A model generated the notes under the pieces. The model saw only the letters and a list, made by a program, of their open reading frames with translations, ran no database searches and was not told where the DNA came from. A program made the translations under genes and the position numbers. Positions 43,128-64,000 of a stretch of 64,000 nucleotides of DNA are shown here, piece after piece (position 1 is the stretch's first letter; each line of letters starts with the position of its first letter). Origin of the DNA: Bauldia litoralis (lineage in GTDB: Bacteria > Pseudomonadota > Alphaproteobacteria > Rhizobiales > Kaistiaceae); NCBI RefSeq assembly GCF_900104485.1, contig NZ_FMXQ01000003.1, positions 62,001-126,000 of the forward strand, given 5' to 3'.

Positions 43128-43203
<76 letters not shown>

Positions 43204-61563: not shown

Positions 61564-61610
61564 GACATCACCCGGCCCCCGGCGCACCGACGCGCAGGCC
61601 GCCCCATCGC

Positions 61611-61892
61611 TCATCCCCGCGCAAGCGGGGATCCAGGCTTCTTACCGTGACGCGACCCGTCATTCCCGACTTGCTCCCGCCAAGGCGAAGCGCCCCCTCC
61701 ACCACCCTTCGGGCGGTCCCCCTCCCCCGCTACGCAGGGGAGGATCGCGATCCGCCGGCCCTGCTTGCCCCAATCCGGCGGTTCGACCCTGAGTGCCGAC
61801 GTCGCCACCGCGATCCCGCCCCGCTTGCGGGGAGAGCCTGTCCCCGACTTGATCGGGGAGGGGACCATCGCGAAGCGATGGTGGGAGGGGCG
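61611..61892. repeat. Composite inverted-repeat block, copy 1
   Basis: Fills most of the 340-bp gap between the transglycosylase gene and the next gene. Element A is a CCCCGC-GCAA-GCGGGG hairpin (61615-61630). Element B (61690-61745) has CCCCCTCCACC and GGTCCCCCTCCCCC. Element C (61805-61892) is roughly B inverted, with ACCATCGCGAAGCGATGGT, and carries an extra 25 bp compared with copy 2. B and C could pair into a long stem. I see no gene in the gap. Confidence 0.8.
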
Positions 61893-62920: not shown

Positions 62921-62990
62921 GACAACCTTTCCCTATCACCGCAACAGCCCGGTCACGTCAGGCCGGGCCACCCCATTCCTCCCCAACCGC

Positions 62991-63225
62991 TCGTCCCCGC
63001 GCAAGCGGGGACCCAGACTTTCTGCTGCCGCGCCGCGTAAAAAAACAGCGCGCCCCCTCCACCATGCTTCGCATGGTCCCCCTCCCCCGTGAACGGGGGA
63101 GGATCAATCCGCCAGCCCCGCTACCCCAACTCAGCCGATGCAATCCTGCGCAGACGCGCCACCGCGTTCCCGCCCCGTGAAACGGGGAGGGGGGACCATC
63201 GTGGAACGCGATGGTGGGAGGGGCG
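62991..63225. repeat. Composite inverted-repeat block, copy 2
   Basis: Same layout as copy 1: hairpin A (62995-63010), element B (63050-63115, CCCCCTCCACCATGCTTCGC onward), a spacer, and inverted element C (63160-63225). It occupies most of the 362-bp gap before the small Cys-rich protein. Same order, same strand and same spacing as copy 1, so the two are copies of one element. Confidence 0.8.
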
Positions 63226-63282
63226 CTCGTTCGCAAGGGCGATCACGCGCAACTGATTTCCCGACCGTTCAAGTTTATGGCG

Positions 63283-63519
63283 CTATTCGCTGTGGCAGGT
63301 CGGACAGCAGTAGTAGCAGCCATCAAGCCTAGAACTTAAGCTCGGGTACTTTCTGCGCGCTTCGGCCATCGCTTCCCCGCAATTCGAAAAATATCCGACG
63401 TCAAGCCTGTTGCTTGAGAGCGGCAGCCGATTGCATGCGCCGGGTGTTTCGTCGTGCAGCTCATTGTTCGCGCCACTGGCGGAGTCCTGCTGGTTCTGGT
63501 TCAGGATGTATTTGGCCAT
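63283..63519 (-). CDS. Small Cys-rich protein, KYI...GCYYC family
   Basis: 78 residues with six Cys: Cys29, Cys47 and a C-terminal GCYYCCPTCH cluster (Cys68, 71, 72, 75). The N-terminus MAKYILNQNQQ and the Leu-rich middle recall, from memory, a family of 70-80-residue orphan proteins found in many phyla. No function is known. AGGAG lies 7 nt before the ATG. The surrounding DNA is AT-richer than the rest of the window, and a TATAAT on the same strand (63598-63603) is about 80 bp upstream, so this small patch may be acquired. Confidence 0.7.
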   Translation of the reverse strand: MAKYILNQNQQDSASGANNELHDETPGACNRLPLSSNRLDVGYFSNCGEAMAEARRKYPSLSSRLDGCYYCCPTCHSE

Positions 63520-63662
63520 TGAGTATCTCCTGACTCTAGTCGATCAACCTCACTGAAAGAATCAGGACATCCTATCCGTCAAAAGGAAATAAATGCAATT
63601 ATAAGTTGCGCAAAGGATGAGGCGCCGCGGGCACGAGCCGTTGCCCGAGCCGCCGGCGCGCC

Positions 63663-64000
63663 TCAGGCAGACCCAGGCCGCTTCCCGTTCTCGTCAAGGA
63701 TCACGCCGCCATCCTCCTTGTAGACCGGCCCGCTCGGCCAGCGGTCGAGGAGGTCGAGCACCATCTCCGAAGGGCGACAGAGGCGAACGCCCTTTGGCGC
63801 GCAGACGATCGGCCGGTTGACCAGCACCGGATGCTCGAGCATCGCTGCCAGCAGCGCCTCGTCGTCGACGCCCTCGTCGAGCAGGCCGAGATCGGCGGCC
63901 GGCGACCGGGTGGTGCGGAGCGCGGTTCGCGGCGTCAGGTCGGCGGCGGCGAAGAGGCCGATAAGTTGCGGCCGCGTCCACCCGGTCTTGCAGTATTCGA
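63663..64000 (-). CDS. arsC: Arsenate reductase (glutaredoxin type), 5' end beyond the window
   Basis: The last 112 residues are visible. EYCKTGWTRPQLIGLF and HPVLVNRPIVCAPKGVRLCRPSEMVLDLL are the ArsC C-terminal motifs, including the three substrate-binding arginines' region. Reduces arsenate to arsenite with glutaredoxin. The catalytic Cys lies in the missing part. No other ars genes are visible. Confidence 0.92.
   Translation of the reverse strand, partial: EYCKTGWTRPQLIGLFAAADLTPRTALRTTRSPAADLGLLDEGVDDEALLAAMLEHPVLVNRPIVCAPKGVRLCRPSEMVLDLLDRWPSGPVYKEDGGVILDENGKRPGSA

Follow-up and report, generated by a model that had tools for sequence, protein, structure and literature searches.

The locus analysed here raises the question of what a small cysteine-rich protein does and how its gene came to lie where it does. 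The window, i.e. the entire 64-kb stretch of DNA under analysis, contains an open reading frame on the minus strand (63283-63519) that starts with ATG and encodes a protein of 78 residues. Six of these are cysteines (29, 47, 68, 71, 72 and 75), and residues 68-76 read C-x2-CC-x2-CH, which confirms the small six-Cys protein with this C-terminus described in an earlier note. The span assigned to it there (63283-63603) has to be shortened, since the gene covers 63283-63519 and 84 bases of upstream sequence had been included; the strand had not been stated. With 56.1% GC and a GC3 of 70.9%, compared to 85-91% GC3 in four neighbours, the gene differs in base use from its surroundings, as had been claimed. 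Together with its upstream region it lies inside a low-GC patch (63240-63610, a composition scan without reference to strand) of 51.8% GC versus 66.6% for the whole window, ranking second of 6363 overlapping windows of equal size. The presumed AT-rich island is thus among the lowest-GC patches, but is AT-rich in a relative sense only. That the gene is more than a chance open reading frame is confirmed by its match to the HMM of phrog_4298 (PHROGs v4; E 3.9e-21, residues 1-77 on profile positions 1-69 of 70) and by the conservation of its ligand residues across phyla. The protein carries a net charge of -2 (pI 5.6) and is probably a cytoplasmic, free-standing, single-domain protein. A tRNA gene was also found in the window (43128-43200, plus strand).

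A Shine-Dalgarno (SD) sequence, AGGAG, is located 12 to 8 bases 5' of the ATG (63527-63531, minus strand), in accordance with the strong ribosome site noted earlier. The possible TATAAT promoter was borne out in part: the sequence exists on the minus strand at 63603-63598, as read from the letters, but a sigma-70 scan of 63100-63900 called no promoter. Terminators were not called in this region either. A possible anti-SD arm, TCCTGATTCT (63558-63567, minus strand), pairs with AGAGTCAGGA at 63528-63537. This pairing reached p 0.02 against shuffles as one of 99 leaders tested, and whole-leader folding gave a z of just -0.39.

All 54 members of our alignment A3 match phrog_4298 as well. For the window protein no Pfam match was found up to E 10, and the single match in NCBIfam (CysI, E 0.14) is due to chance. 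The best Pfam matches among the 54 members, Hepcidin in one member (E 0.001) and YABBY in five (E 0.003), were likewise taken as chance. Searching the sequences of the PDB yielded nothing for the window protein and only a glycoprotein for the family profiles (E 0.13-0.15). No publication was found under the family name or the member accessions in a search whose scope mostly excluded subscription journals. Together with the matches across phyla, these results agree with the view that the family is widespread and has no assigned function.

The distribution of the gene is patchy. It is absent from all four genus mates and all 23 family mates searched, and 33 order mates contain one weak match with an internal stop. 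In the own class, 5 of 289 genomes have the gene by HMM, one of them with a stop, and in the own phylum, inferred to be Pseudomonadota, 7 of 398. Searches centred on other lineages gave 21 of 296 genomes around Bacteroides, 3 of 198 around Endomicrobium and 15 of 398 around Clostridiaceae; all these counts include the genome on which the search was centred, and partial matches are among the weakest rows. Overall, the gene occurs in about 1.5-7% of the genomes sampled across four phyla. A plasmid collection contained 15 records, two of them larger than 1.6 Mb, with Gordonia (Actinomycetota) among the carriers, and a phage collection 16 records, some of which are duplicates and one of which is a filamentous Vibrio phage. 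Relatives are furthermore encoded in 149 stretches of viral contigs, 80 of which were kept. A plasmid of Vibrio casei bears a broken copy (L047, 5001-5240), in which a change of reading frame seems to have removed the C-x2-C from the C-terminus.

In a tree of 64 rows, 19 changes of phylum are required, compared to a minimum of 4, and the starred branches by themselves imply no fewer than 2 to 5 changes per phylum. This tree was calculated without L160, proteins outside 60-90 residues, L047, L156, L248, L249, L251 and rows lacking an assigned phylum. The window copy is placed beside Bacillota members with weak support (91/65). Because the gene is absent from genus and family mates, is present in four phyla, on plasmids and in phages, and because the tree mixes the phyla, horizontal acquisition of the window gene and spread of the family across phyla are well supported. 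The homologue search and phylogeny suggested earlier as a check of transfer therefore speak for it.

The repeats beside the gene, which had been read as a sign of transfer, do not serve this purpose. Upstream on the same strand (63663 onwards, past the window end) follows a gene that we take to be the arsenate reductase gene arsC, and beyond it, outside the window, presumably that of elongation factor P (EF-P). Downstream of the six-Cys gene lie repeats and a gene that we read as DUF2938. EF-P is present in four genus mates. A tblastn search (E 1e-3) of the 3.5-4.5 kb downstream of EF-P in these genomes detected none of arsC, DUF2938, a transglycosylase-like gene and the six-Cys gene. For arsC, no copy was found in three of the four mates, and in the fourth it is located on another contig. 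Hence, the arsC-like gene may have come in at the same site as the six-Cys gene. The repeats are interspersed palindromic units (CTCGTCCCCGCGCAAGCGGGGA and longer ones) at 61610-61631, 62990-63011 and neighbouring positions of the window, and they are scattered over the genome and the genus mates. A 5-kb query has 79 matches in the own genome, itself included. As they are spread through genome and genus and lie beside EF-P even in genus mate G003, which lacks the six-Cys gene, the repeats are no evidence of transfer.

To find the residues under constraint, 112 rows were aligned, representing 111 genes (L233 and L252f are the same gene, counted twice); L160, proteins outside 60-90 residues and the broken L047, which has no C68 and C71, were left out. 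His22 is present in 112 of 112 rows, and Cys29, Cys68 and Cys71 in 111 each. Glu20 (109 of 112) and Ala50 (112 of 112) are similarly conserved. Lower counts were obtained for Cys47 (96), His76 (95), Cys75 (94) and, in particular, Cys72 (just 70 of 112). The window protein has an H-x6-C spacing, compared to H-x3-C in most rows of alignment A1. Judged by this conservation, it is probable that H22, C29, C68 and C71 form a metal site and that the metal is zinc. The earlier proposal that the C-terminal cluster could bind metal or form disulfides is thus retained as far as metal is concerned, but the predicted site includes H22 and C29 besides C68 and C71, and C72 is optional. A c-type cytochrome, considered on account of the C-x2-C-H haem motif, was rejected because of the counts for C72 and H76 and since no signal peptide was recognized by eye. 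Metallothioneins are defined by a very high cysteine content, and with Cys at just 6 of 78 positions this assignment was dismissed, too.

Cys47 and Cys75 appear to be coupled. Both are lost in 14 rows and one alone in 6 (Fisher p 1.4e-12, a value that ignores descent). Three of the 14 double losses are alignment gaps at C75 (L053, L154 and L156), two rows (L233 and L252f) are one gene, and well-supported branches contain just 2 independent pairs.

AF2 models of the window protein (pLDDT 87) and of a canonical member of 68 residues (L006, 6001-6204; pLDDT 97) show three strands followed by a helix and a further, short strand. The predicted ligands come where strand 2 ends, in the loop that follows, and in the C-x2-C behind the last strand. 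On balance, the models favour a small β-β-β-α fold resembling the zinc domain of Ada. This likeness was proposed from the order of the ligands, ahead of any structural match. Among 449 PDB chains compared to the canonical member, N-Ada (1u8b) ranked first, with a Z score of 3.7 and an rmsd of 2.3 Å for 51 residues (model residues 1-65 on chain residues 25-76). This Z score is below 8 and, by the rule of the tool, tied with an MbtH-like chain of Z 2.9 that covers model residues 1-53. In total, nine MbtH-like chains scored 2.2-2.9 (rmsd 3.3-3.7), covering residues 1-54 at most; to our knowledge, MbtH-like proteins do not have this ligand pattern. As a Z score of 3.7 is low, the match may be just a common arrangement. 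The end points of the alignment and a length difference of 13 residues fit a placement of C58/C61 on C69/C72 and of H19/C23 on C38/C42 of Ada (first numbers: canonical member), as deduced without coordinates and assuming no gap at C58/C61. Five of the 13 residues precede the first ligand and eight separate the two pairs, a distribution that coincidence of all four ligands would produce. Foldseek returned no Ada chain among the best 50 of 187 rows for the model of the canonical member. An initial structural comparison that used the window protein yielded neither Ada nor any PDB row with E <2; the best viral row had E 0.26 (probability 0.16), and MbtH-like chains scored Z 2.4-2.5 among 54 compared.

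At the sequence level, PF02805 is matched by none of the 54 members even at E values up to 5, and it has no match at E 0.001 in the own genome and four genus mates. Comparing the family by hhalign resulted in probabilities of 1.9% for Ada and 9.6%, over 14 columns, for the C-terminal zinc tail of an SNase-type nuclease; the positive control, Ada versus this tail, gave 92%. The local profile score against SNase-tail H-x3-C/C-x2-C domains was 17.6 compared to 9.0 +/- 1.9 for column shuffles, none of 150 being as high. The Ada score was equalled by 4 of 150. Forced global alignments left the ligands out of register (2 and 22 columns). Zinc tails of the H-x3-C/C-x2-C type are encoded by viral contigs L259-L279, the one in L259 on an SNase-type nuclease, and two zinc tails scanned were below the Pfam cut-off for Ada. 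HNH endonucleases appeared in 6 of 50 viral fold rows and in one comparison of a member with an HNH PHROG (E 0.0023). These enzymes need a catalytic His at the helix position where the family has its invariant Ala50, and the assignment was rejected.

According to PMC10814553, the zinc ligands of Ada are C38, C42, C69 and C72, and Cys38 is methyl acceptor as well as ligand. The position deduced to be equivalent to Cys38 is His in 112 of 112 rows. Since His replaces the methyl-acceptor Cys, the family would not be an Ada-type repair enzyme and methyl transfer is not expected.

The surroundings suggest that the gene is autonomous. Among 73 loci with distinct proteins (crude open-reading-frame calling) there was no preferred orientation (+/+ 23, -/- 22, +/- 15, -/+ 13), and an upstream reading frame within 40 bases was found in just 4. 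In annotated phages and one prophage-like plasmid the gene is often opposite to both neighbours; in an E. coli prophage it is codirectional with both. One group of leaders, termed enterobacterial-type from E. coli DNA matches and downstream-only matches to Klebsiella phages, has a GTGA-N6-TCA palindrome 99-103 bases 5' of the ATG in 15 of 17 copies, at a shuffle rate of 0.9% and counted on the same sequences in which it had been spotted. Of 96 other leaders 3 have it, and two of these belong to copies of the same group. Going by the consensus, the palindrome presumably resembles a site for CRP or FNR, and it would lie about 61 bases 5' of the transcript start that we assume. In the leader hairpin of this group every cell with letters pairs in the 17 sequences. 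The scores of the outer helix sum to 110, a value reached by none of 500 shuffles (82 +/- 6), with p >0.3 for single leaders in 7 of 17. The inner hairpin, with 2 compensatory cells and 7 of 500 shuffles as high, is modest. A terminator hairpin with a T-run was recognized by eye in 18 of 18 copies. With palindrome, leader hairpin and terminator, the enterobacterial-type copies look like self-contained units. At the leader, the six sources searched against Rfam had no match of gathering level. In one viral contig of this group (L096, 4497-4687) the sRNA STnc100 (RF02076) is located about 2.3 kb upstream of the gene; PMC13192938 gives a prophage origin for it.

A leader sequestering the SD sequence throughout the family was rejected, as, of 60 leaders in which the SD is clear, just 8 reached p <= 0.05, and 5 p <= 0.01; most enterobacterial-type leaders were under the SD cut-off and outside these 60. 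The Enterococcus leader L010 can form a 15-base anti-SD helix that none of 200 shuffles equalled. The corresponding p for L077, from a viral contig, was 0.08, and L083 scored best with a different helix (p 0.14). In L010 and L077, a stretch complementary to the ribosome site was seen by eye between the upstream TATAAT and the likely transcript start. In these two, the anti-SD stretch may silence only read-through from neighbouring promoters and thereby insulate expression. Read-through transcripts of IS10 and IS50 are silenced in a like manner.

Taking these results together, we tentatively propose a mobile one-gene zinc protein with an Ada-like fold that acts as a nucleic-acid-binding module devoid of methyl transfer, a reading to which we give somewhat less than an even chance. 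The protein would be a free-standing single domain with His in place of the reactive Cys of Ada, and its gene a one-gene cargo unit spreading on phages, plasmids and chromosomes, with the window copy as one acquisition. Zinc would fold a module that binds nucleic acid or nucleoprotein, and this binding would benefit the carrying element or the host. Nucleic-acid binding is proposed because of the company of the fold, namely Ada and nuclease tails. Fusions to hydrolases count against it, and so does the near-neutral charge: with a median pI of 7.6 for 79 proteins, the family is not basic.

Defence against phages or counter-defence fits the carriers of the gene, although we consider it clearly less probable. 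Here, an accessory protein would block competing phages or host defences, whatever its zinc domain binds. The gene is a single-gene cargo on phages and plasmids, and in three Streptococcus phages it is one of the genes of the lysogeny region, along with repressor and integrase and in one case also a superinfection immunity protein. Six of 14 plasmid-collection loci have restriction-modification or toxin-antitoxin genes within 5 kb (an uncontrolled raw count; one locus is unannotated), among which RelE/ParE toxins occur in four of the 14. The recurring RelE/ParE genes, however, have their own antitoxin or regulator genes next to them, and plasmids commonly carry pairs of this kind. Apart from RelE/ParE, no partner recurred in the loci read, and PADLOC-DB returned no family up to E 10 for the window protein.

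An adaptor or tag that docks onto a conserved cellular protein is slightly less probable again. Its basis is found in Elusimicrobiota, where the domain ends large proteins and would direct hydrolases as a C-terminal module. Three of these have unrelated fronts: an 825-residue PPT/PGAP1-like hydrolase (L012, 599-3076), a 1121-residue C10 protease with leucine-rich repeats (LRR_5; L252, 5114-8479) and a 537-residue protein without an assigned front domain (L253, 1606-3219). The fourth is a PI-PLC-X protein with the domain at its contig-cut end (L254, 3-1628). All fusion domains lack C47 and C75 wherever the domain end is present, and no obvious signal peptide was seen by eye at the starts of the fusion proteins. 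The domain can thus serve as a portable C-terminal module. Because it ends large, unrelated hydrolase-like proteins, a protein-binding role is a possible one, to which the near-neutral charge would also be suited. The fusions fit a protein- or surface-binding module equally. Against the adaptor, they were found in one phylum only among the genomes searched, and free-standing members dominate.

A metal or thiol-redox protein, the idea of the earlier note, in which the Cys cluster buffers metal or senses oxidation, is rather improbable. Six Cys are present, and C47 and C75 tend to vanish together, as a disulfide or another pair of ligands would. On the other hand, six Cys are few for a protein of 78 residues, C72 can be missing and the four invariant ligands agree with a structural site; no metal-handling partner recurred in the loci read, arsC being a neighbour of the window copy only. 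It is very unlikely that the window copy is a decaying, functionless remnant: its sequence diverges from the family (Leu instead of Val at position 21, Ala where Gly17 is usual, insertions in loops) and neither promoter nor terminator was called for it, but it has an intact frame, a good ribosome site, all four metal ligands and a well-predicted model.

Returning to the mobile zinc protein with an Ada-like fold, its most elaborate version is unlikely as a whole, though less so than a metal or redox function. It comprises one-gene units that move across phyla and employ a stripped-down, repair-less Ada-type zinc domain as nucleic-acid-binding regulator or counter-defence factor, some of them with insulated expression. 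A small protein under strong ligand constraint on phages, plasmids and chromosomes of five phyla likely has a widely shared partner. The proposed fold and the named four-residue site make an anonymous phage family testable. If the Ada-like fold is true, this fold is not confined to alkylation repair but is used by a mobile, free-standing protein as well.

The family of the window protein itself, phrog_4298, was built from phage proteins, and PHROGs assigns it no function. Of the known systems, the N-terminal zinc domain of Ada (PF02805; PDB 1u8b and 1adn) shares with it the order of the ligands and nearly their spacing, X-x3-C ... C-x2-C. In contrast to Ada, phrog_4298 has His at the methyl acceptor Cys38, has no sequence match at the Pfam level and is free-standing, without attached helix-turn-helix or methyltransferase. 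The C-terminal tail of SNase-type nucleases on viral contigs has the same H, C, C, C ligand set, with H-x3-C locally in register. However, it has about 45 residues, is attached to a nuclease in the one locus read, has a shorter region between the ligand pairs and reaches the low hhalign probability given above. Phage morons are accessory genes with their own promoter and terminator, and the enterobacterial-type members resemble them in their conserved upstream palindrome, leader hairpin and terminator; unlike morons, the family also occurs outside phages, and the scan called neither promoter nor terminator for the window copy.
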